This document shows, in pieces, positions 7,701 through 23,832 of a stretch of 23,832 nt of DNA. The position numbers were made by a program, and so were the translations under genes. The stretch covers positions 1 through 23,832 of the forward strand of contig JAJZKY010000006.1 of the NCBI GenBank assembly GCA_021803885.1, given 5' to 3'. This DNA is from Planctomycetota bacterium (lineage in GTDB: Bacteria > Planctomycetota > Phycisphaerae > WQYP01 > JAJZKY01). A model generated the notes under the pieces. That model worked only from the letters and a program-made list of their open reading frames with translations, was not told the DNA's origin and did not search any database. How positions within the stretch are numbered: position 1 is the first letter of the stretch; each line of letters starts with the position of its first letter.

Positions 7701-8372
7701 CACATCGTGCGCTTCATAATCATCTTTAAGCAGATAATGATGGTCGTTGGTGGCGACAACCGGGCAGCCTGATTTCTTCGCCACGTCCAGTAATTGCGGA
7801 ATGGCGGAAATCTGCGCCGGATCATCATGGTTCTGCAATTCCACGAAAAAGTTTTCACCGAAAATGGTTTTATACTGTCCCGCCACATCCACCGCCGCCG
7901 CTAAATCGCCGCGCTGCAGGCAGGCGGCAATTTCCGTGCCGAAGTGGCCGTTAATAACCACCAATCCTTCGGAATAACGGGCCAGGGTTTCTTTATCCAC
8001 GCGCGGGCGATAATAGAAACCTTCAGTATAGGCTAAACTGGCCAGCTTTAACATGTTTTTATAACCGGCCTGGTTTTTGGCCAATACCACCAGATGATAT
8101 GCCGCGTCACTGATGCCATGGGCATCTTTATCAAAACGCGATCCGGGAGCTACATAAAATTCGCAGCCCAGCAGGGGCTTAATGCCGGCTTTTTGGGCTT
8201 CCTGATAAAACTCCACCATGCCGAATAGATTGCCGTGATCGGTTAAACCCAGAGCTGGCATTCCCAATTCCGCGGCGCGGGCGCACAGACCGGGAACGGT
8301 GGCGCCGCCGTCCAGCAGTGAATAATGCGAATGACCATGCAGATGAACAAATGAATCCTGATGAATGGTCAT
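4740..8372 (-). CDS. dnaE: DNA polymerase III alpha subunit
   Basis: 1210 residues, normal length for a replicative DnaE. The ATG at 8372 follows GGAGG with an 8-nt spacer. The N-terminal PHP domain (~8-215) holds HLH (H10, H12), D21, TDHGNLFG (H46), E71, H93, H143, and D210 with H212, so its metal-binding set looks complete. The polymerase core carries PVGARGSGVGTLVGYAL at ~362-378, the two catalytic aspartates in PDIDID (D405, D407), and the third in LLKMDFLGLRT (D554), closely matching D401, D403 and D555 of E. coli. A helix-hairpin-helix segment (FGLAGVKGVGQKAVESI) and an OB fold (ILGGLISKVESR, then WATIILEDLS) follow. The enzyme extends DNA at the replication fork. It is preceded by a clear promoter and followed by the NYN nuclease gene. 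Confidence 0.98.
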   Translation of the reverse strand: MTIHQDSFVHLHGHSHYSLLDGGATVPGLCARAAELGMPALGLTDHGNLFGMVEFYQEAQKAGIKPLLGCEFYVAPGSRFDKDAHGISDAAYHLVVLAKNQAGYKNMLKLASLAYTEGFYYRPRVDKETLARYSEGLVVINGHFGTEIAACLQRGDLAAAVDVAGQYKTIFGENFFVELQNHDDPAQISAIPQLLDVAKKSGCPVVATNDHHYLLKDDYEAHDVLCCISMGKTLADQNRLHYSRQLYLKSPAEMRAIFRDLPEACDNTLKIAEMCEVQLDFSKRHAPVYTPPQDPVTGKAISADDYLRRLCEQGVVERYGEFNDTLRQRLEQELKVIQNKGFSSYFLIVWDFCNYARQHGIPVGARGSGVGTLVGYALGLCNVDPIRYDLLFERFMDPSRSEMPDIDIDICQEGRGKVIEYVRKKYGNVSQIITFSTLGAKAAIKDVGRVLAMPLAEVDKITKLIPGGVGVTLDSALQVADLKKLYKEDPNVMRLFDIARRLEGLCRNAGMHAAGVIVCDKPLDEVVPLYKSGEDIMTQWDGPTCEKAGLLKMDFLGLRTLTIVERALALIEADYPQGLPALKSIAADGAELISAHPAGPRPGRLDIEKIDLTDQCVYKQIFQRGQTKGVFQFESPGMRELLIKMKPDRIEDLIAANALFRPGPMDLIPDYCARKHRLKPVPSVHPIMDKILAETYGIMVYQEQVMRIFNQLGGIPLAKAYKIIKAISKKQIAVIAAEKQHFLEGAEKNGIKQEQAAEIFALIEEFGKYGFNKSHSTRYAIVAYQTAYLKTYFPLEYMAALLTYEMIDQTKTTEYIEDCRFLIRPDGRVGIPILPPDINQSVADFGVVDGTIRFGLAGVKGVGQKAVESIMAARENGADGASRPFTSLFDFCERVDLRTVNKSVIESLIKCGAFDALHHNRAAATAAIEAAMQSGNSAQNARRAGQESLFGGGGAIAMAAGEYKLPAVPEWPQGQKMANEKAVLGFYVTSHPLRDYEALLHDFTTINTQSLKTAHDGKEGILGGLISKVESRLVRSGPNAGQKWATIILEDLSSNVKVTMFAAEFQKYGELIKADAVLLFRGKVDRSREEPGFRVYEVLTPEQAVQKLAREVLICVDAQAVEAESIARLREALQQYPGRLPAKIQLTAPDSDRPFKATLTLGKTVSSSAEALRHFASAMQDAKVRLLGPGTYVNAVRTTSAADTAHLQPS

Positions 8373-9944: not shown

Positions 9945-9977
9945 TGAACGGTATAATTGGAACGTGAGGCGGTCATA

Positions 9978-11639
9978 ATGAGTCATCGTGGAAGCTATAA
10001 GCAACGAAGAAGCTATGCGAAGGGCCATACGGGCCACTTCCACCATTCAGATGTTGGTCTGTATCTACCGCTGTTGTCGGTTTGTAATTGGTTTCTTTGG
10101 ATGTTGCTTCTGGCGGGGGGGGTAACAGGCTTTACTTGTATTACAAAAGGTCAAAGTTTATTGTCGGGGTCAATAGCGGCCCGACCGGTTGAACCCGTCG
10201 CCCATCGTCACGCTGTGGTTATTACACTTACCGGTTCGATTGATCGTATATCCTGGGTTAGCGTACAGCGGCGTATGGCTACAGTGCGTAAAATGAAAAG
10301 TTCTTTGTTAATTTTCAAAATCAATTCGCGCGGTGGTCAATTGTACCCGGCGTTGCAAATCGCCGCACTGATACGCCATGCCGACCTGTCTACTGTCGCC
10401 TGGGTGGACCGGGCGGCCCTGGGACCGGCAGCGGTAATTGCCGCCGCCTGTCAAATGGTCATTATGTCTCGCAATTCCGCCTGGGGCGACGGACAAAACT
10501 TCGCGCTTTCCGGTGCTCATGCCGCGGCAGTGGCTTCGAATCCGATGGCCACAGTATCGTCCGCTGCGCTTAAATCTCTACAGCGGGATCAGGCCTTTCA
10601 TCCAATATTGATTCTCGTGGCCATGCTGGATCCGGCGGTTAAAATTGATGAAGTCCGTAATAAACTGACGGGTGCCACACGCTTTGTAACACCCGCACAA
10701 CGCGCCGCATTAGTGAAGATTCGCACCGTTACTGTACAAAATGAATCCACGCATCCATGGATATATATAAAACGGATAAAGAAAACCGGCAGGTTGCTGA
10801 CTTTAGGCGGGCGGGAGGCGGTACGCACGGGAGCTGCCGTGGTAGTGGTGAAAGATGCGGACAGCATACCGGCATTACTGAATATCATCGGCGGTAAGTT
10901 ACCGGTATTAAGACTGGACCTTCTCGAAAAAGCCTCGCGTTTCTTTTCCGATTTTGAGGTGCGATTTTTTCTATTCGTGATTATGTTGGTGTGCGGGTAC
11001 GTGGAATTCAGCCATCCGGGGCTGCTGATTCCGGCGCTGTTAGGTTTGGTCGCCTTAGGATTATTTCTGGGCGGCCCCATGCTGACTGGTCTGGCGAACT
11101 GGTGGGAGGTGGGCATTATATTTCTCGGTATTGTGATTATCGCTTTTGATTTTGTCCATTTTGGCGGCTTGGGACTGCTGGCGATACCCGGATTTATCCT
11201 GGCGATCATGGGCATGATTGCCTCCTTTGTGCCTATGGGTGTTTCGGCTATAGGCGCGGAACAAGCCTTTCAAACCGGTCTGGGGGTGGTAACTCTGGGC
11301 CTGATTACCGCGGGACTCATTATTGTATTGCTGGTAAAATATCTGCACATCACCCCGGGGTTCCGGAGGCTGCAATTAAAGCCGGCGATGGTGGCAGCGG
11401 CCGGCAGCGCCGGATATGAGGAATCGACGGAGCGGTTGTTTGTTGGTGCGGTGGGGCGGGCTGTTTCTGAACTACGTCCGGCGGGCAAGGCGCGTTTTGA
11501 CACGCAGTTGCTCACGGTGGTTTCGCGGGGAGATTTTATTGCGCCGGGCGTTCCCGTGCAGATTGTTGAAATACGGGAAAATCAGGTCATTGTGCAAAAA
11601 CTCGCGGATGATGTGGAACCGTCCGCTCCGCACCTATAG
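9978..11639 (+). CDS. nfeD: Long NfeD family membrane protein with degenerate ClpP-class protease domain
   Basis: 553 residues from an ATG at 9978 (GAGG upstream; a TTG at 9957 is the alternative). The order is: a basic N-terminus; a membrane segment at ~28-55; a ClpP/crotonase-like domain at ~78-250 with the GG turn in FKINSRGGQLYPALQI; a membrane bundle of four to five segments at ~318-455 (FFLFVIMLVCGYVEF, then GFILAIMGMIASFVPM); and a C-terminal NfeD OB fold at ~487-545 (GAVGRAVSELRPAGKARF). In active relatives the nucleophile lies in an A-x-S-A-G motif. Here the aligned sequence is AALGPAAVI with Gly149 in the Ser position, and I see no clear partner Lys. The protease is therefore probably inactive. 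It is followed 6 bp later by a short NfeD paralogue; the pair usually works in membrane quality control with SPFH/flotillin proteins. Confidence 0.9.
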   Translation: MSHRGSYKQRRSYAKGHTGHFHHSDVGLYLPLLSVCNWFLWMLLLAGGVTGFTCITKGQSLLSGSIAARPVEPVAHRHAVVITLTGSIDRISWVSVQRRMATVRKMKSSLLIFKINSRGGQLYPALQIAALIRHADLSTVAWVDRAALGPAAVIAAACQMVIMSRNSAWGDGQNFALSGAHAAAVASNPMATVSSAALKSLQRDQAFHPILILVAMLDPAVKIDEVRNKLTGATRFVTPAQRAALVKIRTVTVQNESTHPWIYIKRIKKTGRLLTLGGREAVRTGAAVVVVKDADSIPALLNIIGGKLPVLRLDLLEKASRFFSDFEVRFFLFVIMLVCGYVEFSHPGLLIPALLGLVALGLFLGGPMLTGLANWWEVGIIFLGIVIIAFDFVHFGGLGLLAIPGFILAIMGMIASFVPMGVSAIGAEQAFQTGLGVVTLGLITAGLIIVLLVKYLHITPGFRRLQLKPAMVAAAGSAGYEESTERLFVGAVGRAVSELRPAGKARFDTQLLTVVSRGDFIAPGVPVQIVEIRENQVIVQKLADDVEPSAPHL

Positions 11640-11645
11640 GATAGA

Positions 11646-12146
11646 ATGGCGATGAATCTGGATTTATTGGTTGCTACCCTTTTGCTTTTTGTCGGCGCCT
11701 TTATTTGTCTGATGGCGGAACTGGTGGTGCCTGCTCACGGATTCATGGCTGTATTATGCGCGGTATTCGCTCTGGCGGGCGTTATCTTAAGTTTTATGGT
11801 CGGTCCAGCATTTGGCATAATATGCCTGATTGGAGTGCTGGTGTTGACACCTTTTCTGATCACAGCTTTTGTGAAGCTGTATCCGCGCAGTCCAGTTGGA
11901 CGACGGGTTCTTTTACGCGGTCCTAATCCCGGAAATGTTGCCGCAGTTTCCAAACAGCAGCAGATCGAATTGACCTCGCTGATAGGGCAGCGGGGAGTGG
12001 CAATGACAACGTTGCGGCCAGCCGGAACGGGTTTGATTGCGGACCAGCGTATCAGTTGTATCAGTGAAGGACAAATTATCGAAAAAGGTGCGCCTATATG
12101 CGGTGTTGGTGTATCCGGTGGCCAACTGGTGGTGCGGGCGATGTAG
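11646..12146 (+). CDS. Short NfeD-like membrane protein
   Basis: 166 residues, beginning 6 bp after the long NfeD gene, with AGGAT just ahead of the ATG; a second in-frame ATG lies two codons later. Three hydrophobic segments at ~6-28, 31-52 and 56-80 are followed by a soluble domain whose core IGQRGVAMTTLRPAGTGLI and GVSGGQLVVRAM matches the OB-fold part of NfeD proteins. Short NfeD proteins normally accompany a flotillin-like SPFH protein in bacterial membrane microdomains; no SPFH gene follows here. It lacks the protease-like domain of its neighbour, so the tandem probably arose from family expansion and the two may form one membrane complex. Confidence 0.8.
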   Translation: MAMNLDLLVATLLLFVGAFICLMAELVVPAHGFMAVLCAVFALAGVILSFMVGPAFGIICLIGVLVLTPFLITAFVKLYPRSPVGRRVLLRGPNPGNVAAVSKQQQIELTSLIGQRGVAMTTLRPAGTGLIADQRISCISEGQIIEKGAPICGVGVSGGQLVVRAM

Positions 12147-12347: not shown

Positions 12348-12515
12348 ATGACACACCCGGAAATGCCTGGTAAACCAGTGGCCGGCAAGGTCGCCTGTGG
12401 GCTGATATTGTTTATTTTGCTGCTTTTGGCTTTAGGTGCTATCGGTGTAGTAAATTGGAAGGTTGGTCGGGGTGTTCCGGTACGACATACGCCCATCGTG
12501 GAACCATCTCAGTAG
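12348..12515 (+). CDS. 55-residue single-pass membrane peptide
   Basis: A short open frame with a good ribosome-binding site (GGAG, 7-nt spacer) before the ATG at 12348. The product has a 16-residue polar N-terminus (MTHPEMPGKPVAGKVA), one strongly hydrophobic segment at ~17-36 (CGLILFILLLLALGAIGVV), and a short tail with two arginines. The composition (clean hydrophobic core, flanking Lys and Arg) fits a real small membrane protein. Its last 7 bp overlap the end of the convergent nucleotidyltransferase gene. It lies 201 bp after the short NfeD gene on the same strand, so an association with the NfeD membrane complex is possible but unproven. No family is recognised. Confidence 0.6.
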   Translation: MTHPEMPGKPVAGKVACGLILFILLLLALGAIGVVNWKVGRGVPVRHTPIVEPSQ

Positions 12516-13768
12516 CGTTGCCGGATTAATTTTCTGGCGGCTTCCAGGGCGCTGGCGCGATCGGGAAATTCGTTTTCCAGTTGCCGATCATAAAGCTCTT
12601 CCAGCCAGGTTTTGAAAAGTACACCGGGTTGTGCGCCAAGTAAAATTAAATCATCGCCGGTGACAAAGCGATCTGGAGCCAGCGGCTGGGCTTTCAATTC
12701 ACGGAGACGCTGGGTTAATAAGGTCGCTTGTTCGTCGTCGGCGTGTCCTGTCGCATAAAGTACCAGAAGCTCATCCGACCAGGCGTGCGCCAGCAGGCGT
12801 TTAAAAGCGGCCAATCGCATATTCTGCCAATGTTCCAATAAGGGGAGATTGGTCAGAAGCCATTGTGTATATTGCGTTTCCAGACCGCTCAGCGCCAGAT
12901 TGTTTCGCAGCCGGGGGATGTGATCAATGCTTATCGTTGAATCCTCGTGTAAGGAGGGGGCCAGATCAAGTATCAGTGCGGCCAGCGCTACCGGAAAAGA
13001 GCTTGTTGCAGGTAGAGCAGTTAGCCGCTTTAAGGTATTTGCGGCAGAGTTGGGTTTCAGCGGCCCCGACCAAAAGGAGTTCAACAATCCACTGTCAATA
13101 AGTAAGTTTACTGCGGAATGACGTTGCGAATGAATAAGTATTTTGCGAAATTCCTGGCCGATGCGTTCACGGCTGATGTCCGACAGGTGTGCGGCATTGT
13201 CAGCAATTGCCGCCCACGTTGTGGGTTCAATGGTGAAGCCGAAGCGTGCGGCAAAACGAATCGCCCGCATCATTCGCAAATGATCTTCACGGAATCTCTG
13301 GGCTGGATCGCCGATGGCGCGGAGAATTTTGGCACCTATATCCGCCTGCCCGCCGACGTAATCAATAAGGACCTTCCGGATCGGATCAAAAAACAGGCCG
13401 TTGCAGGTAAAATCCCGCCTCTGGGCATCTTGTTCGGCGGTGGTGAACTCTACACTGTCCGGCCGACGGCCATCGGAATAAACGCCATCGGATCTGAAGG
13501 TGGCGACTTCCATGCTCCGGCCCCGCAGTTTAACCATGACCACGCCGAAGGCTGCTCCGACTTGCGCGCTGCGGGGAAAAAGGCGCAAAACCTGTTCCGG
13601 GCGGGCAGAGGTGGCAATGTCATAATCTTCAGGCGGACTACCCATGATCTGGTCCCGCACACAACCACCGGCAAAAAAAGCTTGAAAACCCGCCGCATGA
13701 AGTTTTTGAACTACTTCTATGGCCCTCTGCCGCGGATCAAATTTTTCTTGTGTTTTATGGTGAACCAT
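12509..13768 (-). CDS. cca: tRNA nucleotidyltransferase / poly(A) polymerase family protein
   Basis: 419 residues from the ATG at 13768 (MVHHKTQ). An in-frame ATG 36 nt upstream gives an unlikely N-terminus; neither has a strong ribosome-binding site. The class II nucleotidyltransferase head is clear: FFAGGCVRD (G34, G35), the catalytic pair D48 and D50 in EDYDIAT, a third carboxylate at E87 in MEVATFR, RRDFTCN at 117-123, and the nucleotide-selecting EDHLRMMRAIRFAARFGF at 161-178. A helical tRNA-binding body follows. These enzymes add or repair the CCA end of tRNA; close relatives make poly(A) tails instead, and the two cannot be separated reliably from sequence alone. The gene stands alone on this strand between the small membrane peptide and an insertion-element remnant. 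Confidence 0.92.
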   Translation of the reverse strand: MVHHKTQEKFDPRQRAIEVVQKLHAAGFQAFFAGGCVRDQIMGSPPEDYDIATSARPEQVLRLFPRSAQVGAAFGVVMVKLRGRSMEVATFRSDGVYSDGRRPDSVEFTTAEQDAQRRDFTCNGLFFDPIRKVLIDYVGGQADIGAKILRAIGDPAQRFREDHLRMMRAIRFAARFGFTIEPTTWAAIADNAAHLSDISRERIGQEFRKILIHSQRHSAVNLLIDSGLLNSFWSGPLKPNSAANTLKRLTALPATSSFPVALAALILDLAPSLHEDSTISIDHIPRLRNNLALSGLETQYTQWLLTNLPLLEHWQNMRLAAFKRLLAHAWSDELLVLYATGHADDEQATLLTQRLRELKAQPLAPDRFVTGDDLILLGAQPGVLFKTWLEELYDRQLENEFPDRASALEAARKLIRQRY

Positions 13769-13816
13769 TGAGATTATTATACTCGCGAAAGCCCGATAGG
13801 GCATCTGGATTCGGAA

Positions 13817-14428: not shown

Positions 14429-16189
14429 TTATCGCACCGTTTGAATTCTCACCACAAGGTCTTTGGCGACGAGCAAATTGATGCCGTTCCATTTCAGGTG
14501 ATAATAAAAGCTCCCCGTCGTATACGTCGTGGCTTCCATTTTGGTCCCGCTTTTCATCTTGAAGACGTAGCTCTTAATGGGGCCTGTCGGTCCCTTCTTC
14601 GCGGGCGAGAAATAATGTGGTGCACGGGCGCAATAAAGAATATGAACCGTATAGATGTTGTCTGGCGGTATTTGTTGTGATGGGATATCTACTGCAGGAA
14701 TATTAGCTAAATATATATATGGGGATGAGGGCGGTTGCAATGGATGGAAATAAACCTGTGATCTCAATTGCGTTCCAGATGGCAATGATAATTGTGGTGT
14801 GGCGCGAGCGATGCTTTGAGATGATATTCCCACCACAATGCCATAAACTGCCCCGCTTTTGGGATGCTGGACTTCCGCAGGCGAAACAATCTCACCATTG
14901 TTTTGTGGGCCACGGAACGCCAGGGCAACTATTCGCAAATCTTTTCTTTGATTACTGTATGCCGCTTTCGTAACCGAGGAGCATTCATCTTTCTCCGCAA
15001 ATAACAGATTTTGATTAACTTGCCATCCCATCGCATGTGGAGACTCGCTTTTCAAAATGTCCAGTTGATATTGGTACTCCGCTTTCCGTCGTAAGCGCGC
15101 TTCTTTGCGTATCAATTTGAAATGTTCGATGATCTGATTGCGGATGCCAAGTTCCAGCAGCCGCTCCTGCCGTAAAAGATTCATCGTCGCCGGAGGGCCA
15201 CCGGCAATATTAGTATTGCCGTTTTTCCCCATTTTCAGGAACGCCACCACACGTTTCCCTATTAATTTTCCGGGATCAGTACGATACCGCTCCAATTCAG
15301 CGGCCAATGATGGAACCGAATACGCCGCCACTGGTTTTTTCGCCATTCTTATAAGCTTCGGCCACTGATCGGTAGGAATTGCACCGCCAATGTTAGTCAT
15401 CGAATTTGCATTACCTGCAGGTACCGCCTGAGCCGCGCCTGGAGAAAATCCCGGCGACTGGTATGTTGGAACAGTTGAATTCAGAATTCCCGGATGTGGT
15501 ACAATATTCTGTGGCCACAATGCCGGCAGATGTGAATTGAGCCTTCCCGGAGCCGGCATCAAGCTCGGTGCCGCCATTGAATCTTGCTGCAATTGTTGCC
15601 GCAATTGCTTCATGGCTGACATATCCGTTACTACAGCCTGTGGGTTGCCCGCTTTCATTGCGGCTGCAATTTGCTGCTTCCACTGGGTAATTGCGGCCTG
15701 ATCTGCCGCCACCACTGCATCATGGCAGGTAAGCTGCGCCTTTTTAACTTGTGCCACGGCTGATACTACCGCTTTATTGCGGGCAAGTTCTATTTTCAAC
15801 ACTGGATTCTGTTGACCGGTGGTATTAGTTGCACTTTGAAAATTGGGTGGAAATGTCGTTAAAGCCTTTTCCTCGGCCAGGCGGGTTTTCACGGTTTTCA
15901 AAAGTTTCTGTGCCGCCACCACCGCATCTGCATTGCCCGCCTTCATTGCGGCAGTGGTGGCCGAATTGAGGGCTGCAATTTCCGCCTTATCCGCAGAGAT
16001 GACCTCTGACCAATCCGCAGTTTCCTGCTGTTGCAGTTTCGCCTGTGCCTTCTGAATGTTTTGGAGGCGGTCAGAGGCAATTTGTTCGGCAGCTGATCGG
16101 GCCAGCGATAGCCAACAGCATAACAAAAGGGTGCTGGAAACCGCGCCTATAAAAAGGGCAATTGTTCCGCTGCGTGATTGATTCGACAT
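14429..16189 (-). CDS. N-terminally anchored protein of unknown function with internal duplication
   Basis: 586 residues from the ATG at 16189 (AAGGA about 13 nt upstream). One hydrophobic segment at ~8-30 serves as a signal anchor; the rest is probably outside the cytoplasm. Residues ~65-104 and ~163-201 are two copies of a helical unit sharing AAMKAGN.x.AVV and ending in KTRL or RQQL, an internal duplication likely to form coiled coil. A Pro/Gly/Asn-rich linker (~204-280) follows, then a charged helix (~340-390, RKEARLRRKAEYQYQLDILK) and a beta-rich C-terminal half ending in FKMKSGTKMEATTYTT, then LLVAKDLVVRIQTV. I do not recognise a family. It lies 315 bp downstream of the GYF protein gene, with a candidate promoter in between, so it may be a separately expressed partner of the GTPase cluster. 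Confidence 0.8.
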   Translation of the reverse strand: MSNQSRSGTIALFIGAVSSTLLLCCWLSLARSAAEQIASDRLQNIQKAQAKLQQQETADWSEVISADKAEIAALNSATTAAMKAGNADAVVAAQKLLKTVKTRLAEEKALTTFPPNFQSATNTTGQQNPVLKIELARNKAVVSAVAQVKKAQLTCHDAVVAADQAAITQWKQQIAAAMKAGNPQAVVTDMSAMKQLRQQLQQDSMAAPSLMPAPGRLNSHLPALWPQNIVPHPGILNSTVPTYQSPGFSPGAAQAVPAGNANSMTNIGGAIPTDQWPKLIRMAKKPVAAYSVPSLAAELERYRTDPGKLIGKRVVAFLKMGKNGNTNIAGGPPATMNLLRQERLLELGIRNQIIEHFKLIRKEARLRRKAEYQYQLDILKSESPHAMGWQVNQNLLFAEKDECSSVTKAAYSNQRKDLRIVALAFRGPQNNGEIVSPAEVQHPKSGAVYGIVVGISSQSIARATPQLSLPSGTQLRSQVYFHPLQPPSSPYIYLANIPAVDIPSQQIPPDNIYTVHILYCARAPHYFSPAKKGPTGPIKSYVFKMKSGTKMEATTYTTGSFYYHLKWNGINLLVAKDLVVRIQTVR

Positions 16190-16504
16190 GCTGCCACTGC
16201 CTTTCCTTCGACACCGCCTCGCCTGTCCAACGGTTGCAAGTGGTTTTTCCCATGATCAAAGTGCGAAGCAGTCAGGATAAACGTACCTACGTCCCAGTTG
16301 GTTGTCAATTTTCCCGGCGATTTCCCAACGATGCTTACTGCCGCGGGCCGTTGATATGCTCACGCTATTGCACATCGCGTGCTGGAGCTGACTCGCGTTT
16401 GCCGGTTGTAGTGGATACTTTCCGGTTTGCGGGGGCGATTGCGGGTGGAGCGGGAAAACCCGCGGCGTGAGCTGTTGGCTATTCGCCCATGCAGGGATGC
16501 AATA
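16190..16504. other. 315-bp gap inside the GTPase-associated cluster
   Basis: No convincing gene. Near its right end GCGGGAAAACCCGC (about 16451-16464) can form a short GC hairpin just past the stop codon of the upstream gene, without a T run. The left half holds a candidate promoter for the 586-residue gene. The gap separates that gene from an otherwise tightly packed run. Confidence 0.4.
16280..16308 (-). promoter_or_regulatory. Candidate promoter for the 586-residue anchored protein
   Basis: Minus strand: a perfect -35 box TTGACA (16303-16308), a 17-bp spacer and TACGTT (16280-16285), a weak -10 box. It would give a leader of about 85 nt. The perfect -35 box and ideal spacing are the support; the poor -10 box is the weakness. 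Confidence 0.35.
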
Positions 16505-17422
16505 TCAGTGGGCAGCGTGCGCCGTCTTTGCCTTCGCCGCCACCTTGGCTGCCGCCGCCTTCGCCTTCGCCGCCTTTATGGCGGCAGCCTTCGCGGCAGC
16601 CGCGCTTGCCACCGCCGCCGCCTTTAACGCCGCCGCGACAAAAATAATCACCAGATAGACAAGCCACATTGCATATCCAGACAGCGAGATGATCCCCAAA
16701 ATCAGACCGGTAATTGCCAAACCGTTTCCGTCACGACTCCTCGCCTTGCGATTGCCACGGAGGGTCACCGACCCAAAGGCCGTTGCGGCAATGGCGCATG
16801 CCAGCCCTGCCAGGAGAATACCCCAGAAAACGACGGTCATGTCTGCTACCCGGATTGCTAAAAGCAGACACAGCGGACCGGCGGTAGGAATAATGATGCC
16901 CGCAATTCCGAGGATCAGGGACGCAACACCGCTGCCAAAATAGCCAGCCGATTGTGCCCCCTCCGGTGTGTATGACCGTGCCGGTGGTGCGCCCAGTACC
17001 AGTCGCTGGTAACAAGATGGGCAGATATACCGCCCCCTATCATTAAAAAGTTGCGCCGCCGGCAGAACACTTCCGCAGGATACGCACGCTATCATCGGGC
17101 CGTTACCCGCGGGCGGCGCAGGTGCCGATTCGTTACGGGCGGCTGCTGGAGGAGCGCTATTGCTCGGCGACTCAGCAACCTCATCAGCACCCGATGGAGT
17201 GTCGGCGAACTCATACTCCGATTGGCGCTGCGAGGTTCCACGCGACGATGCTTCTGGAATAATACCAGGAATGGTTGCCGCCAAGGCCCAGTTCACTTTA
17301 TCCGTCGATACCTCATGGACTCGGGACAACATTCCCATCTTGGCCAGCCGCTGCAGACCGTTCTGATCAAACGGCCCGGTAATTTTCCCCCGTGACCGTA
17401 CAAAGTATCTTTCACCAGCCAT
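16505..17422 (-). CDS. GYF_2 / zinc-ribbon / DUF4190-like membrane protein with Ala-Lys-rich tail
   Basis: 305 residues. The ATG at 17422 is chosen because AAGGAG lies 8 nt upstream; a TTG two codons earlier lacks that spacing. Residues ~5-50 (ERYFVRSRGKITGPFD, then LSRVHEVSTDKVNWALAA) form a GYF_2 domain, a small peptide-binding module common in planctomycete membrane proteins. After a Ser/Ala/Pro linker comes a zinc ribbon with C113-x2-C116 and C134-x2-C137. Two or three membrane segments follow at ~162-190 and ~195-220, then NGLAITGLILGIISLSGYAM at ~233-252, typical of DUF4190, with a further hydrophobic stretch to ~264. The last ~40 residues are almost only Ala and Lys. It starts 31 bp after the 969-residue gene and is very likely in the same operon; a role as a sensor or adaptor for its neighbours is inference. 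Confidence 0.85.
   Translation of the reverse strand: MAGERYFVRSRGKITGPFDQNGLQRLAKMGMLSRVHEVSTDKVNWALAATIPGIIPEASSRGTSQRQSEYEFADTPSGADEVAESPSNSAPPAAARNESAPAPPAGNGPMIACVSCGSVLPAAQLFNDRGRYICPSCYQRLVLGAPPARSYTPEGAQSAGYFGSGVASLILGIAGIIIPTAGPLCLLLAIRVADMTVVFWGILLAGLACAIAATAFGSVTLRGNRKARSRDGNGLAITGLILGIISLSGYAMWLVYLVIIFVAAALKAAAVASAAAAKAAAIKAAKAKAAAAKVAAKAKTAHAAH
16519..16640. repeat. GC-rich low-complexity tract encoding the Ala-Lys tail
   Basis: Imperfect short repeats built from GCCGCC, TTCGCC and GCGGCAGCC words. On the minus strand they encode the alternating Ala/Lys C-terminus of the GYF-domain protein. Such tracts expand and contract by slippage, so tail length is likely variable between strains. 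Confidence 0.6.
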
Positions 17423-17453
17423 CTGCAATTCTCCTTGTCTTTTTCTGCCTGTA

Positions 17454-20363
17454 CTATTTTTCGCCGGGAGTAATCAACACCAGCGTTCCTTCGACCATGG
17501 TGGAATCAGCTCCCGGTACCCAAACCCATTTTCCCGCGTGCCTCACACCAATTTTTTCAAGGTGGTACTTCGTTCCACCGGCAACAATCACCCAGGCTCG
17601 GTCGCCATTGGATGGAGGCATGGCGGCACAGTGAATGCTCATAGCCCCATTCACTTTGCGACATATTCCCAATGTGCTAATGCTGAAATTCACACTTTGT
17701 TTAAGAGCTTCATTGGCGCTGTGCGCCTGCGCTATATACTGCGTAAGATCAGGTAGCATTTTAAAGGCCCTGTCCACGCCATGGACAATATCACTCTGTA
17801 CCGGTTTAGCCGGATTGAGCCAATTGACATTTTCCAGATGCAGATGCTTCAGCCGCCGGGCCGAATTGGAAAAGGCGGCAGCTTGTTTTTTGGACATAAA
17901 CGGCTTATTAAGCACCAGTACATCCGACAACAAAAGGCCTTTAACCACGGGGCTGGCCGATGACGATTGCAAAAGGCGCATTTCCTCAAATCCAATGGTG
18001 TTCCACTGCCCAAACGACATACCACGCACCGCATCAAGCAACCGGCGCGACAACCTGGCCTGCGGACTGCGTACCGGCCTTTTAGTAGTCAACGATACAC
18101 CCACCGGCAAATCTATCACAGAACGTGCACTGGCGTCAGCGGAAGTTACAGCATTAAACGACAGCACCTGGTCATTGCCTATCGTATTTTGGGTAATTCT
18201 GGTTCCAGGCAGAACAAAATAGATTGTGCCGCCAGAGGTGGTAAATATATCAAGTCGGCGTAACAACCGGTTATGCAGCACGGTGGAAAACTGTCCCAGC
18301 CACGGCCCGGTAGCCGCGGTGGCTGTCAAAGCCTGGGCAAGATAATTTGAATATTGAAGGGCCACTTCCGCCAGCGGGGAGTTTGGATATGCCGCCAGGT
18401 ATTTAGTAATTGCCGCCAAATATACTTTGGCATTTTCCCGTGTGGGGTTAAGCAGACTTCCCGCCCAGCTGGTGCGAAGATCACTCCAGGCTTTTACCGC
18501 CCGGAGAGCTGGAATGGCAGCGCTTAACTCGGCAACCGTTTGCTTATAACGTCCATCCGGGTGGCCGTTTTTATAACTTTTTAGCGCGGAAATATAATCA
18601 CCGACGGTAAATGGTGGAGTTAAAATCCGGGCATAAGCGGCATTATCCGCAATAATATTGGTTAAGGCCGCGCTGCGGCGAGACAACACGGCCTGTATTG
18701 AGTCTATCTCCGCATCGTATAGTTTTTTTGTTATTCCTTGGGTTGTTTCAAGCCCTTTCAACTGCGCTTCCAGCAACTGTAATGTTTTTACGGCCATGGC
18801 AGGATTATGCCGAATATCGCCGGCGGTCAGTCGCAAATCAATGCGGTCCAGCAATTTTCTTGCAGCACGGTTAAACGCGCTGTCGCGTAGCGCCTGCTGC
18901 TGCTGATCGTAGGCATGATGTTTACGGAACCATTTTCTTATTGCAGCTTTTTCCGAGGGCCGCAGGGCCACCGCCCGCGCCGCTGACATCAACCGCAGGG
19001 CCTGCGCACTGCCCAATGGCAACGGTACCGCACGGGCGTATAGGGACTTAAAATGTTTCGCCCGGATTTGCTCCGCTGCCACTGCGGCCTGCAATTTTCC
19101 CGTATCCGCGATAATTTTCGGTGTGTCCCGCACCCCCGCCGGCTGTTTGGCCAAGAGTCCCAAAACTTTCTGTCCGTCGGCCAGATCCCCCATGCGCGTT
19201 ACTTCAGCCGTGGCCGCCCTGATTACCTGATCCCAACCCCTGACCTCATGGCTGCGAATGGTAAAAAATGCAAACAGTCCAATCGCCGCCAACAGCACCA
19301 CCGCCGCCGCAGCCACCGTGAAATAAATCATCTTCCGCTTGCGCAGAGCCTCCTGCTGGCGCCGAGCCATACATTGTTTGTAACGCGTTTCGAGTTCCGG
19401 TGCCAGCGGCAGGGAAAGTCGCGTGGTGGCCTTGTATGCCTGTTCGATAGTTTCTGTGGGTTTTCCCGTATCAATGGCCTGTTCTAACTGCACGCAGGCG
19501 GCATCAAAATCACGCTGCAGTTTGCGTGATTGCTCCAAACCATGCAGCCAGGTCTGCACAGCTTCCAGCCGCTCGCGAATATCCCCATTGGGGCTGCGTC
19601 CCTGCAACGCGACCCCACAATCTTCCAGCAAGGCCCGGCATCGATCTTCCTCCATGGCGGAATAAGCGGCATCCAGCTCCGGCAGCAATTTTTGCATGTC
19701 GCGTTGCGATTCTTCGTCCCGAAATTTCTCCACGCGGGCGTTGACATCGCGCGTCATATCCGCCGGAACAGGGACGCTCCACAAATTGGAATTTAATTCG
19801 CTTTGCAGGTTCTCCAGCAGTTGGGGATCAACGTGTGCTGATGTCAGGATTTTTCGTATCTCCCCGAGCCGCGCGACTTCAAACGTCCGTATATCATCCA
19901 CCCAGAATGACGCGGTGGTATCCAGCCTGGCAATTTCCCGCATCACCACCAACCGCAAGGGCAGCGGTGCCAGCGCCATGGCCAGCGTGCGATGTTTGGC
20001 CAGCAGCACGGCAATCGGTTGCACCGCGGTATAAGCGTCATTGATGGCTGCCGCCGAATCCATATCCAGTACCGGTGCTTCCGGCAGACCATATTGCACG
20101 CACAGTTGCCGCCAATCGTTGCGACCGGGAAAATCCAGGATAGTCAATTGGTCAAGAACATTGGGACTCGCTTCGGCCAAATGTACCGCTTCGGTGCGCA
20201 GATTTTGCCGCAGCAGTTGTGAACAGCGCCGAATACGATCATTAACCGTTCGACATAAGTCCGCATAGCCGACCGCCAGATCGCGCAGCTCCGGTGTTGC
20301 CGATTGATCTTGTGCCAAGAGCACGTCGCGTAACTTGTCCACTACCTCTTGTGCTTCAGCCAT
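17454..20363 (-). CDS. Large single-pass membrane protein of the GTPase-associated cluster
   Basis: 969 residues. The ATG at 20363 follows AAGGGA with a 7-nt spacer. Residues 1-343 are mostly predicted helix, charged, with heptad-like stretches (RDMQKLLPELDAAYSAMEED and LEQSRKLQRDFDAACVQLEQ), and end in a basic stop-transfer-like RRQQEALRKRK. A single membrane segment lies at ~345-370 (MIYFTVAAAAVVLLAAIGLFAFF). The remaining ~600 residues, helical to about 640 then beta-rich, end in KYHLEKIGVRHAGKWVWVPG and an acidic cap. By the positive-inside rule the N-terminal third is cytoplasmic and the rest lies outside. No family is recognised. The gene starts 18 bp after the GAP1-like gene and ends 31 bp before the GYF gene, a tight operon. 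A cytoplasm-to-envelope linker is a reasonable inference. Confidence 0.85.
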   Translation of the reverse strand: MAEAQEVVDKLRDVLLAQDQSATPELRDLAVGYADLCRTVNDRIRRCSQLLRQNLRTEAVHLAEASPNVLDQLTILDFPGRNDWRQLCVQYGLPEAPVLDMDSAAAINDAYTAVQPIAVLLAKHRTLAMALAPLPLRLVVMREIARLDTTASFWVDDIRTFEVARLGEIRKILTSAHVDPQLLENLQSELNSNLWSVPVPADMTRDVNARVEKFRDEESQRDMQKLLPELDAAYSAMEEDRCRALLEDCGVALQGRSPNGDIRERLEAVQTWLHGLEQSRKLQRDFDAACVQLEQAIDTGKPTETIEQAYKATTRLSLPLAPELETRYKQCMARRQQEALRKRKMIYFTVAAAAVVLLAAIGLFAFFTIRSHEVRGWDQVIRAATAEVTRMGDLADGQKVLGLLAKQPAGVRDTPKIIADTGKLQAAVAAEQIRAKHFKSLYARAVPLPLGSAQALRLMSAARAVALRPSEKAAIRKWFRKHHAYDQQQQALRDSAFNRAARKLLDRIDLRLTAGDIRHNPAMAVKTLQLLEAQLKGLETTQGITKKLYDAEIDSIQAVLSRRSAALTNIIADNAAYARILTPPFTVGDYISALKSYKNGHPDGRYKQTVAELSAAIPALRAVKAWSDLRTSWAGSLLNPTRENAKVYLAAITKYLAAYPNSPLAEVALQYSNYLAQALTATAATGPWLGQFSTVLHNRLLRRLDIFTTSGGTIYFVLPGTRITQNTIGNDQVLSFNAVTSADASARSVIDLPVGVSLTTKRPVRSPQARLSRRLLDAVRGMSFGQWNTIGFEEMRLLQSSSASPVVKGLLLSDVLVLNKPFMSKKQAAAFSNSARRLKHLHLENVNWLNPAKPVQSDIVHGVDRAFKMLPDLTQYIAQAHSANEALKQSVNFSISTLGICRKVNGAMSIHCAAMPPSNGDRAWVIVAGGTKYHLEKIGVRHAGKWVWVPGADSTMVEGTLVLITPGEK

Positions 20364-20381
20364 AAGAAATCCCTTTTAATT

Positions 20382-22994
20382 CTAAAATCCCGCCGCCGGA
20401 CCGTGTTGCTTCCCCACTGGTTGGGTTGTAATGGGCCGCGGCGTGCCCGGCTGCGTTGCCGCCCCCGGCCTTGTGTAGGTAACGGTTTCCAACACCGGCC
20501 CGCCGGGATAAAGCTCAACGCGAAATGTAGTACGCTGGACGGATTCCAGTTGTTTCATCCGTTGTCGCATCCTGCCCAGGCGGCTCCTGATTTCGCTGGC
20601 CAGTTTGGCCAGGTCCCCGTGCAGGTTCTGCTGGTGCACCAAGGGCGCGATGAGCATGGCGTTTTTTTTAGGGTGTTTTTGATATTTCTTCAGTTCCCAT
20701 TTCTGGTGATTCGTCAACGCTTGCCAATTATTCAAATTTTTCTTTACCCAGTTTTCATCTTTCCGACATTTTTTCACCCAACTATTCAGTCGTGTCGCCA
20801 GGGTCTGGTAATTGTTAGTGAGCATTCCAGTCCTCAACTCCACCGTCAGTGGCCCCAATGGCCGGAGCGTTAGCGGTTTGGAGGCCTTCTCGCCGGTAAG
20901 CTCCGCGCGAACCTTCCGCAATAACGTTTCCAATTCCTGGTGGCGATTAATCGGCTTCAAAGCCCTGGTATAGGCCCCTTTTGCTAATTTCCAGGCACCC
21001 GGATGGCTCGCCCCTTCGATTTTGAGATGGAGATCAGCCGAAATTTTATTGTCAGCGATGGAAAGTCGCTGCGGAATTTCAACAGGGAAGTTGGAGGTAA
21101 TGTTTCGGCTCAGTGCAACAGTGTGGTTCGCCGGCCCGGAGGGAAGGAACTGGATGCGTTCCCGTCGTCCGTTTTTCAGTCGCACATCGGCCACCATTTG
21201 TTCTGCGTAAAGCAATTTGGCGGTAGCTAAACCCCTGGCCGGCTTTAGCGTCAAGGTGTCGCGTTCGCATGAAACACTAACGCTGCACAGTGGAATATTT
21301 TGGCTATCCAGCATCAAAACCCCGGCGACGGAGGTCGAGCTCGGCACCCAGTCAACGGAATAATCCAGCGACACTTTACGTCTCCGCGACAGAATGCACG
21401 GCTTCGACATTTTCTGGGGGTCTTTAGAAACGACACCCTGCGATTTAACGAACATCTCGATTCTCCCGCTATGCGATGGTGGTGGAAGTCGCACTATAAA
21501 GCTCGAGATGTTTTTTACCTGCACGCTATGTGCCGTCGTGAGGGCTCTCATCTCCAAGTTTCCCGCCGCCGGACCGGCAAAAATCGGATGGTCCACCACT
21601 TTGAGGGGGCGATGAATGATTGCATGATTCGTTGTTGCGGGTGTTTGTTTTCCAGAGCGCGGCCGGCCGCCGCTTACATTTTTCGGATGCGTCGCGGGCG
21701 GTTTAGTTTTGCCCGATGTTTTTTTACCGTTGCCTGATTTTTTCGACGCGGAATATGTGTTATTGACGGCATGCGTGGCTTGTTTCTTCAATGTCACAGG
21801 CTTTTTCTCTGCCGGAACTGAACTGGCCACCAGTTTCTCATGGCGGGAAATACCCACGGCCACCATAGCCTGCTGCAATTGCCGCGCGGGCTCCAAATGC
21901 CGCAGCAGAAAGGCGGTGCCCACCATCGCGAGGATGACAAACGCCGCAACCCCGAATATCACCGGCAGAATCCAACGCCGTTTCCGCGGTGCGTGGCGGT
22001 CGGCAACGGCCTGATCCACATTGTGTGGACGGAAAAACCGCGTCGCCTTGCGTTCCGGCGCTAATGGCGCAAGTTCCAGAAGACCCGTCTCCGCGGGCCT
22101 GCCGCCGCCCGCCTTCCCGCCCGGCAATGCTGCCGGCGTGGCCAGCGTGATCGGTGCTTCCACATTAATAATTGATGAACGCAGCACGGAAAGATCAATT
22201 ATTGTGCCGTCACGCGCTGCAACATTGCACGGGCCATCCGGTGCCCGCCCCAGCGGGCGCGTTAGGTCAATAACTGACTTTGGATCTAGCGTTCCTGCCG
22301 CCGTGGCCGTGCCGGCGATGATGCCCCGCCAATGGCACTTGACCCCGGCCGCCGGGATACCCGTAAAATAAGTGCTGAACGCGATCTGCCAGCGCATTTC
22401 CGCCGGCAAAAGCGCCAGCGCCTCAGCGAATAATGCCAGCGTAGATGTGCCGGGATTGCAGATAATATGCACAGGAGCATCCGGCTTATCACAAAAGCGT
22501 TGCAGCAATTCGCCGGCCCAGCCCGCATCACCGGTTACGCGCTGCCAGACCGTACATGGCGCAGGTGTGGTATCGCCATTGGGAATAGCGGCTGGGTTTT
22601 CAATCCAGCGCGGTTCGCCCTGCCACATTTCCTGCATCAAACCAGGACGCTGCAGCAACCAGGCTGGCCCGGCCAAAGGAAGTTCCGCAGAGTCCAGCAC
22701 CATAAAATGCGCTAATTTATTCGTCCGACCGGTATAGTCCGTTGGTGCCGCTGAAATACGTGCAAGCACCCGGACCACGCGCCCGCGGTCAGCAAGGAGG
22801 TAATGACAAAAGTTTACCGGATTATTGGCATAGTTGCCGTTGCCGGCGGTGTATAAATGGCGATAGCCGCTTAGGGATTCCAGCGTTGCCGCCAGCGCAG
22901 GCGACATTTGTCGGGACATGGCCACGGTACAAAAGCCCACGCTTCCGGGCTTAAGCCCCTTTTTGGCCGAGGTGTAAATAAGCTCCAGTCCCAT
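20382..22994 (-). CDS. GAP1-N2-like GTPase-associated protein fused to a membrane anchor
   Basis: 870 residues. AGGGAA precedes the ATG at 22994. Residues 1-~270 resemble the GAP1-N2 domain of GTPase-associated proteins: it opens with LELIYTSAKKGLKPGSVGFC, has LSGYRHLY at 41-48, the conserved TNKLAHFMVLDS at 91-102, and later IAFSTYFTGI at 204-213. In GTPase/GAP1 conflict and signalling systems this protein is encoded next to the GTPase, as here. Residue ~341-364 is one membrane segment preceded by RKRR. It is followed by a Lys/Ser/Thr/Pro-rich linker (~385-460), a beta-rich block (~490-660), and a helical block to ~840 (HQELETLLRKVRAELTG). Relatives as I know them lack a membrane segment, so the C-terminal half is the unusual part. 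Lack of the usual GAP1 middle and C-terminal modules cannot be judged by eye. Confidence 0.8.
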   Translation of the reverse strand: MGLELIYTSAKKGLKPGSVGFCTVAMSRQMSPALAATLESLSGYRHLYTAGNGNYANNPVNFCHYLLADRGRVVRVLARISAAPTDYTGRTNKLAHFMVLDSAELPLAGPAWLLQRPGLMQEMWQGEPRWIENPAAIPNGDTTPAPCTVWQRVTGDAGWAGELLQRFCDKPDAPVHIICNPGTSTLALFAEALALLPAEMRWQIAFSTYFTGIPAAGVKCHWRGIIAGTATAAGTLDPKSVIDLTRPLGRAPDGPCNVAARDGTIIDLSVLRSSIINVEAPITLATPAALPGGKAGGGRPAETGLLELAPLAPERKATRFFRPHNVDQAVADRHAPRKRRWILPVIFGVAAFVILAMVGTAFLLRHLEPARQLQQAMVAVGISRHEKLVASSVPAEKKPVTLKKQATHAVNNTYSASKKSGNGKKTSGKTKPPATHPKNVSGGRPRSGKQTPATTNHAIIHRPLKVVDHPIFAGPAAGNLEMRALTTAHSVQVKNISSFIVRLPPPSHSGRIEMFVKSQGVVSKDPQKMSKPCILSRRRKVSLDYSVDWVPSSTSVAGVLMLDSQNIPLCSVSVSCERDTLTLKPARGLATAKLLYAEQMVADVRLKNGRRERIQFLPSGPANHTVALSRNITSNFPVEIPQRLSIADNKISADLHLKIEGASHPGAWKLAKGAYTRALKPINRHQELETLLRKVRAELTGEKASKPLTLRPLGPLTVELRTGMLTNNYQTLATRLNSWVKKCRKDENWVKKNLNNWQALTNHQKWELKKYQKHPKKNAMLIAPLVHQQNLHGDLAKLASEIRSRLGRMRQRMKQLESVQRTTFRVELYPGGPVLETVTYTRPGAATQPGTPRPITTQPVGKQHGPAAGF

Positions 22995-23144
22995 ACTTTT
23001 CCCTGTTCCAACATTCCACCCGGCCCCCGGCTATGCGTTTCAAATCAGGCATTCTGGCAAGCCGCGCTTGCAGATGCTGAAATACCGCAATTTCAACCCA
23101 TATAACAGATTACCGAAGCCCTGCCGGCAAACCCATGCTCAATA
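22995..23144. other. 150-bp gap between GTPase and GAP1-like gene
   Basis: Minus-strand spacer holding only the ribosome-binding site of the GAP1-like gene. No promoter or terminator was convincing, so read-through from the GTPase gene is likely. Confidence 0.4.
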
Positions 23145-23832
23145 CTAAACCAGCCCGCTGGAAGTCCACTGCGCCAGGGCATATAAAACCGGAACGGTAA
23201 CCCAGTGGGGCTGAATATCACGCGGACGGATGGCCAGTAAATTTGCATCACTTGGATGCGGCTCGGGCGCATGGCCCAGAGAACTGATTGGGATATACAC
23301 CACCGTCCTGGAAACCGCCTCCGCCATGGCTACAATTTCCGGCGTAGTGGTCAGCAGAAGCTGCCGCAGTTTGCCCGATACGTGATTAATGCGTTCCATG
23401 TCCACGCGAGATATGGTGGAATCGACCCGCGGCAAATACGGCTCCCGCATAATATCTTCATCCAGCAGGGGCGCCCAAATATCAGATTTACTTACGCAGA
23501 CAATCAATGGGCGATCTGTGCGCGCCTGTGGCCCCAGACCGCCGTAGCGCCGCATCCGGTTTGCCGCCTCATTAAGCAGCGATTCCTGCCGCAGCGTTTT
23601 TCGCCCCGCCTTGATTTGCGGATCATTGCTGAAGGCCCCGCATTTGGCCCGCATCCGCGGATCTTGGGTGGGATCGAACAGGAACAGAATCAGTTGTGCT
23701 TTGCCCAGATGCTGCGTTACGGGCCGCCCCGGCGTGTCTGCTCCGGGTAAATAGCTTTCACCCGCGTTGTCATACACGCACACCACGCGGGAGACTTCCG
23801 CGGAATATTTGAACCGCGGATGCTGCGGTGTG
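23145..23832 (-). CDS. GTPase, double-GTPase (DO-GTPase)-like, C-terminal part (5' end outside window)
   Basis: The frame is open to the right edge, so the N-terminus with the phosphate-binding P-loop is missing. What is visible is a GTPase core: the switch-II/G3 motif in VVCVYDNAGES (DNAGE at 23757-23771), a hydrophobic strand ILFLFDP, the guanine-specificity G4 motif as SKSD (23481-23492, in place of NKxD), and a G5-like ISS in VVYIPISSLGH. The yDnaGE plus lFDP spacing resembles the double-GTPase proteins paired with GAP1 in prokaryotic conflict systems. GTP binding should switch the complex encoded downstream. A GTG at 23786 could be taken for the start, but conserved sequence continues upstream of it. 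The ~45 residues after the G5 region are less typical. Confidence 0.8.
   Translation of the reverse strand, partial: TPQHPRFKYSAEVSRVVCVYDNAGESYLPGADTPGRPVTQHLGKAQLILFLFDPTQDPRMRAKCGAFSNDPQIKAGRKTLRQESLLNEAANRMRRYGGLGPQARTDRPLIVCVSKSDIWAPLLDEDIMREPYLPRVDSTISRVDMERINHVSGKLRQLLLTTTPEIVAMAEAVSRTVVYIPISSLGHAPEPHPSDANLLAIRPRDIQPHWVTVPVLYALAQWTSSGLV

Follow-up and report, generated by a model that had tools for sequence, protein, structure and literature searches.

DO-GTPase-GAP1 systems were defined in 2020 from genome context (Kaur et al. 2020, PMC7159879), and the main text of that study proposes a conflict role for them and reports GAP1-N2 proteins with C-terminal transmembrane segments (TMs), planctomycete proteins that join GYF to a TM-rich region, and GYF-trypsin proteins in planctomycetes. 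For the planctomycete GYF branch, its passages on the subject suggest action close to the membrane and name no more specific output (PMC7159879). In the literature searched, the papers that seem to concern these systems are that study, a 2021 companion, and one on phage-shock proteins, and we met no experimental work on DO-GTPase-GAP1 systems. GAP1 stands for "GTPase-associated protein 1", and the name does not imply GTPase-activating activity. Here, we analyze a locus of this kind in a 23,832-nt stretch of contig JAJZKY010000006.1 from a Planctomycetota bacterium (the whole stretch is termed the window), in which genes for a GTPase, a GAP1, a 969-residue protein (p969), a GYF/zinc-ribbon protein, and a 586-residue protein follow one another, all on the minus strand, with the right edge of the window falling inside the GTPase gene.

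Other described systems enter the comparison. In the Myxococcus gliding machinery MglAB-Agl-Glt, MglA is a Ras-like GTPase, MglB is a Roadblock protein, and GltJ is a GYF/zinc-ribbon protein that acts with MglA. Zorya systems combine ZorA and ZorB with ZorC and ZorD or with ZorE. As recounted in PMC3169522, the Myxococcus machinery also comprises a TolQ-like motor with two TolR-like partners (AglR, AglQ, AglS) and the FHA protein GltG, and a table in that source equates "Adventurous gliding motility protein X" with AgmX/GltJ. A stator-evolution study of 2025 places TolQR, ExbBD, and AglRS together in a single clade, to which Zorya is remotely related, and its main text holds no occurrence of "GTPase" (PMC12505986).

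With a confidence just above even, we read the window locus and its relatives as encoding an envelope receptor-GTPase-motor complex that is architecturally like MglAB-Agl-Glt. This reading is built on gene order, domain content, the adjacency of motor genes to p969 in relatives, the TM aspartates of the ExbD-like proteins, and exchange of the GAP1 ectodomain. The new parts are p969 as a core partner, a MotA/TolQ gene with two ExbD-like genes, and an exchangeable GAP1 ectodomain. We met neither the motor partnership, nor p969 as a core partner, nor the swapped ectodomain in a literature search whose scope took in the main text of Kaur et al. 2020, where ExbB, MotA, TolQ, ExbD, and "proton channel" have no occurrence, and not its supplements, which may list p969 or MotA neighbors.

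The window locus belongs to the GAP1-N2 system that Kaur et al. 2020 described. Shared features are a DO-GTPase2 followed by a GAP1-N2/GAP1-M protein, a GAP1 with a TM, and a planctomycete GYF protein with a TM-rich region. The window GAP1 carries both required domains (Pfam GAP1-N2, 3.2e-27, 95.7 bits; GAP1-M, 8.6e-13, 48.8 bits; cut-offs 24), and upstream of it lies the expected TRAFAC DO-GTPase, whose DNAGE motif is present and whose P-loop falls outside the window. Over 212 residues, the GTPase fragment shares 51% identity with the GTPase part of P0026, a naturally fused DO-GTPase2-GAP1 protein (annotated PF19993+PF20013+PF20014), and it is 73-86% identical to the P-loop-bearing GTPases of the window's nearest relatives (L001-L004, Planctomycetota metagenome-assembled genomes). 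Among 73 GTPases of relatives longer than 380 residues, the P-loop is present in all 73, D-x-[AP]-GE in 72, and [SNT]KxD in 65. By these sequence likenesses, the window GTPase is classed as a DO-GTPase2; Pfam gave no match over cut-off for the fragment, and PF19993 scores in six relatives fall on both sides of the cut-off. The described system also has an FNIII-repeat component, for which no Pfam match was found in the scanned proteins of the window, cut as it is at the GTPase.

A first-pass annotation of this DNA had set out the five genes, with gaps of 18 and 31 bp among them, and had recognized in GTPase plus GAP1 the signature of a described system. The open reading frames (ORFs) are as it claimed, and the Pfam matches of GAP1 together with the likeness to P0026 confirm the second point. 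It had also supposed the membrane-anchored version to be undescribed, which is incorrect, as the main text of Kaur et al. 2020 (PMC7159879) reports GAP1-N2 TMs and GYF-TM proteins. The domain matches that it proposed to check were obtained in part: GAP1-N2 exceeds its cut-off, GYF_2 (0.0041) and DUF4190 (2.7e-5) stay under theirs in the window's GYF protein, and the GTPase fragment gave none over cut-off. An NCBIfam scan of the window proteins yielded no match over cut-off.

The cassette extends well past the GTPase-GAP1 pair. ORF profile searches were made in 80 GAP1 loci, the best 80 of 138 confirmed ones, fetched with an alignment of 18 GAP1 proteins and in many cases lying on short contigs. 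The GTPase was found in 76 of the 80 loci, p969 in 63, and the GYF protein in 51 (some GYF matches lie upstream of or are fused to the GTPase), counts that argue against chance co-location; co-location in relatives was a test that the first-pass annotation had named, and it came out in favor of a system, as did the conservation of gene order, which is kept in Planctomycetota and Lentisphaerota. Because its homologues occur in 63 of the 80 loci, we regard p969 as a core partner of GTPase-GAP1 at the level of gene content. In an independent sample of 294 Planctomycetota genomes chosen without regard to GAP1, GAP1-N2 was detected in 34, with 33 of these over cut-off, and PF19993 exceeded its cut-off in 28, cassette GTPases often scoring below it. 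The p969 model matched in 67 of these genomes at E<=1e-3, with 23 at E<1e-29; GAP1-N2 is present in 21 of the 23 (20 over cut-off) and lies on the same contig within 5 kb in 19. Distances among the GTPase, GAP1, p969, and MotA proteins correlate (r 0.74-0.94, 25 loci).

No Pfam match over cut-off was obtained for p969, whose predicted layout consists of a cytosolic helical domain (residues 1-345), one TM, and a large periplasmic part. Its AlphaFold model has a mean predicted local distance difference test score of 87.3, with values <50 only at residues 347-368, and a predicted template modeling score of 0.50; searched against PDB folds, it gave none at E<=0.001. Within GAP1 loci, 52 of 65 p969 ORFs are closed, at 940-1060 residues. 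The GYF protein adjoins p969 in most relatives that have it. Of 22 aligned members of the family, 20 match GYF_2 at E<=0.01, mostly with two GYF domains, and the window's protein has one GYF domain plus a zinc ribbon. The family profile matched five PDB entries, the best being 7z3c, "Adventurous gliding motility protein X" (1.1e-10); the match falls on the second GYF domain, which the window's protein is without, and P0002 searched singly gave no match.

The 586-residue protein, which has no Pfam match over cut-off, is probably not part of the system, because it has a homologue in only one of the 80 GAP1 loci and because, of the four near-relative genomes, each of which holds two homologues, only one has it adjacent on the cassette contig. 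Of the four-membrane-protein complex proposed in the first-pass annotation, GAP1, p969, and the GYF protein recur, and the fourth member is not a consistent part.

The motor genes came to light in the relatives. A MotA homologue is found in 30 of the 80 GAP1 loci, and 29 of the 63 p969 loci encode a MotA/TolQ/ExbB protein, in 25 cases with exactly two ExbD-like ORFs. The MotA-like proteins are about 290 residues long and match MotA_ExbB in Pfam in 23 of 23 aligned members; their profile matched PDB weakly (best TolQ, 0.027, then ExbB, 7.5). The ExbD-like proteins are one-pass proteins with a coiled coil of about 100 residues and an ambiguous fold match; all 89 ORFs keep a TM aspartate, and the ExbD/TolR model is absent from the Pfam matches listed for them. 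In the 294-genome sample, the MotA subfamily lies within 3 kb of p969 in 17 of the 23 p969 genomes, and matches at E<=1.4e-79 adjoin p969 in 16 of 16, the p969 match being weak (4.7e-12) in one of them, G053, where no GAP1-N2 was found. Mapping of 20 stretches gave 11 complete rows of GTPase-GAP1-p969-MotA-ExbD-ExbD, seven of them with GYF before MotA, and nine others with cut contigs, overlapping frames masking a gene, or parts wanting. The motor genes occur in two phyla and stand downstream, divergent, upstream, or inserted before GYF, a variety of placements which suggests that the linkage was made anew after rearrangement. Of two cultured carriers, Rhodopirellula solitaria (L070) bears the motor genes next to GAP1, whereas the locus of Limnoglobus roseus (L061) is without a motor gene. 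All four nearest relatives of the window have the motor genes, divergent from the GTPase in L002-L004 and on another contig in the genome of L001. As the window ends inside the GTPase, we infer from these relatives that its own genome has motor genes past the right edge.

Six p969 genomes (G126, G039, G211, G188, G001, G071) weigh against a motor as a constant part, having none nearby; in G211, G188, and G001, the p969 frame is only 380-452 residues long and the match is limited to the cytosolic domain and TM. Of 21 genomes with a motor-less locus, four had the subfamily elsewhere at E<=4e-94 (the genome of L001 and three Lentisphaerota), and the remainder had MotA-subfamily matches of 4e-68 or weaker, or none. 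Separately, p969-like genes without a GAP1-N2 match were seen in G053 (L098), G229 (L096), and G071 (L099), with MotA/ExbD-like genes in G053 and G229; these may be motor cores that do without GAP1 as a switch. In the 294-genome sample, other MotA-like proteins, with longer frames of about 490-680 residues, form a second group that lies away from p969 (e.g. in G048, G064, G139, and G184).

The GAP1 proteins combine a constant and a variable half. The window GAP1 is 80-96% identical to its nearest relative up to about residue 400 and 21-53% identical past residue 500, and the p969 from a contig of equal length (16339), probably the same contig as that relative's, is 52-96% identical to the window's. 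Between L026 and L032, identity is 80-98% for the GTPase, the cytosolic part of GAP1, p969, GYF, MotA, and each of the two ExbD-like proteins, and 27.5% for the GAP1 ectodomain. P0014 combines a cytosolic part 96% like that of P0012 with an ectodomain that resembles the window's (40%, 250 bits) more than that of P0012 (28%, 80 bits); in a database search with the window ectodomain, P0014 came first after the window's own record. Three genomes carry tandem GAP1 genes, one on each side of the GTPase (L082 10519-17418, L083 4207-11008, L084 4016-10848). The cytosolic N/M parts of the tandem copies are 98.1, 95.1, and 99.6% identical, whereas their ectodomains look unrelated, with 5-6% of residues in the best local match; at the DNA level, blocks are 83-100% identical over the first 720 bases and 32-57% identical past base 1300. 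General divergence of the ectodomain is countered by L028/L035 and L027/L029, which keep 90% and 83% ectodomain identity. From these sequence patterns, GAP1 looks like a receptor whose constant signaling half is kept alike by recombination while its outer half diversifies, and the exchange of ectodomains on a constant cytosolic domain makes it likely that the ectodomain sees a ligand.

Relatives of GAP1 and of its ectodomain also occur in other contexts. An extra gene between GAP1 and p969 in the four nearest relatives (L001 4084-5322, L002 12454-13689, L003 10913-12349, L004 12631-14067), which the window is without, has as its product a protein that is related to the GAP1 ectodomain and is either secreted or anchored, and a zinc-ribbon/TM protein (L002 6395-8215, L004 6179-8116) bears a region related to it. 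The genomes of L015 and L031 hold a second, shorter GAP1-N2 protein (G011:C12 and G012:C47; frames of 452 and 499 residues). Similar short GAP1-N2 proteins in the phylum sample adjoin DO-GTPase2 frames of about 300-325 residues and are perhaps a different subtype without p969.

These elements can be assembled into a mechanism. GAP1 would be a one-pass receptor, with the exchangeable ectodomain outside and the constant GAP1-N2/M part inside, coupling to the DO-GTPase. p969, with one pass and large helical domains on both sides, would form an inner-membrane scaffold in physical association with the GYF/zinc-ribbon protein. The motor, as seen in relatives, would consist of a MotA/TolQ-type channel conducting protons together with two ExbD/TolR-like one-pass proteins bearing the invariant TM aspartate. 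Signaling would run inward: binding of an outside ligand would alter the nucleotide state of the GTPase, which in its GTP form would couple to the scaffold or let it go and thereby act as a clutch on the proton-driven motor. The proposal in the first-pass annotation, a GTP switch in the cytoplasm linked to a complex in the envelope, remains the best reading, and the proton-channel gene in relatives strengthens it.

Set beside MglAB-Agl-Glt, this arrangement resembles it in a GTPase switch, a TolQ-type motor with two TolR-like partners, a GYF protein (GltJ/AgmX), and an inner-membrane FHA protein. The single-cluster grouping of TolQ with two TolR/ExbD partners is seen in relatives and not in the window, however, and those partners have no ExbD model among the Pfam matches listed; the Ras-like MglA and Roadblock MglB are replaced by the DO-GTPase2 and GAP1-N2 families; the likeness to the GltJ GYF structure 7z3c comes through the second GYF domain of the family profile; the ExbD-like coiled coil of about 100 residues differs; and no counterpart of p969 was found. 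With TolQR/ExbBD stators, the motor shares the MotA_ExbB domain and the TM aspartate, but here a GTPase switch and a variable receptor stand in the operon.

Defense is the main rival reading. The cassette would then be a conflict system against phages or competitors, of the kind that Kaur et al. propose: detection of an invader at the envelope would fall to the variable GAP1 ectodomain, the setting of a threshold to the GTPase, and an effector role like that of ZorAB to the membrane proteins with the motor; we consider this unlikely, though it deserves serious weighing. Its patchy spread (34 of 294 Planctomycetota genomes with GAP1-N2), the fast-changing, exchanged ectodomain, and the tandem alternative GAP1 copies all fit such a role, as does the gene for a GYF-trypsin protein in the cassette of one relative, where it stands between MotA and the ExbD-like genes (L012 12132-13655). 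Like Zorya, the cassettes pair a MotA-family channel with an Asp-bearing one-pass partner, and the best PADLOC matches of the MotA-like protein are ZorA models (4.6e-8), over the channel region only. However, the MotA-like proteins, at about 290 residues, lack the long C-terminal tail of ZorA, there are two ExbD-like partners, and GTPase, GAP1, p969, and GYF take the place of the Zor effectors; these same partners recur instead of varied effectors. p969, GAP1, and the GYF protein had no PADLOC match at E<=0.01, and the GTPase had a weak one (4.4e-4). Among 99 of the 125 flanking ORFs, each of the 25 PADLOC families listed (of 84) matches three proteins, counts without a matched control, and ZorC, ZorD, and ZorE are not among them. 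One listed family is described as a kinase, Pfam kinases occur in seven of the 99 ORFs, and most of the other listed families are presumably kinases as well.

A further alternative, which we rate as improbable, sees in GTPase-GAP1-p969 a modular switch that docks on a TolQR-like machine in Planctomycetota and, in Lentisphaerota, on a PilM/PilO-like platform of a pilus or secretion system. In the Lentisphaerota-type loci, GAP1 is about 310 residues long without a TM, and the GTPase bears an FHA domain, in some cases along with a GYF domain; the FHA domains favor the docking model. So does a PilM homologue directly after p969 in seven of nine such short-GAP1 loci with room for it (L065 14295-17715, L068, L036, L046, L064, L071, L042), PilM_2 matching in both homologues scanned and a PilO-like gene being present in five. 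In G320 and G321, a PilM cassette (L065, L068) coexists with a motor cassette elsewhere in the genome (L101, L102), from which the core seems, on gene content, to dock on two kinds of inner-membrane machine. On the other hand, Pfam recognizes neither the PilO-like nor the 217-residue genes at E<=0.01, the PilM profile found no match in the Planctomycetota loci of L001-L080, and the model extends the favored receptor-GTPase-motor reading more than it contradicts it. Least probable is that motor and GTPase-GAP1-p969 genes are neighbors through operon inertia without a functional link, as p969/MotA without detected GAP1-N2 in G229 and G053 and GAP1-p969 without a nearby motor in G126 and G039 would allow, since the motor lies within 3 kb in 17 of 23 p969 genomes and was relinked after rearrangement in two phyla and several arrangements.

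The features of the window locus are collected in the table below. Its genes are separated by 150 bp (GTPase-GAP1), 18 bp (GAP1-p969), 31 bp (p969-GYF), and 315 bp (GYF-586-residue gene), and hydropathy predicts one TM each in GAP1, p969, and the 586-residue protein (N-terminal) and four in the GYF protein. Elsewhere in the window lie a DnaE-like gene (4740-8372) and NfeD-like genes (9957-12146), both judged by eye from translation, and a gene of the CCA-adding enzyme type (12509-13804, Pfam), all probably unrelated neighbors.

Table. Positions of the GTPase-GAP1 locus and its features in the window.
Feature	Position	Strand	Basis or remark
DO-GTPase2, C-terminal part	23831-23145	-	open at window edge; zinc ribbon and P-loop cut off
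DNAGE motif, GTPase	23757-23771	-	
SKSD motif, GTPase	23481-23492	-	
GAP1, 870 residues	22994-20382	-	Pfam and hydropathy
GAP1-N2 domain	22614-22985	-	Pfam
GAP1-M domain	22260-22544	-	Pfam
GAP1 TM, residues 345-363	about 21906-21962	-	hydropathy
GAP1 ectodomain	about 20385-21599	-	
p969, 969 residues	20363-17454	-	ORF; homologues in GAP1 loci
p969 TM, residues 351-369	about 19257-19313	-	hydropathy
GYF/zinc-ribbon/four-TM protein	17428-16505	-	TTG start 17428; first ATG 17422
GYF domain of GYF protein	17267-17407	-	
CxxC...CxxC zinc ribbon of GYF protein	16997-17089	-	
586-residue protein with N-terminal hydrophobic segment	16189-14429	-	probably outside system

Taken together, the motor and the p969 scaffold give the planctomycete GYF branch a testable output. 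More tentatively, and on our estimate less likely than not, the cassette may represent a new class of signaling machine in Planctomycetota and Lentisphaerota, in which a GAP1 receptor with strain-specific, recombining ectodomains acts through a dedicated GTPase on a proton-driven MotA/TolQ-ExbD motor. The new scaffold protein p969 and a GYF protein like GltJ would be the link, and force would be the outcome when a neighbor or invader is recognized at the envelope. If true, this machine would have arisen by convergence with MglAB-Agl-Glt and would include recognition of kin or contact as an integral part. Questions that now become approachable are whether a GTP switch controls a Tol/Exb/Mot-type motor in planctomycetes and whether such a system serves self-recognition, surface behavior, or phage defense.

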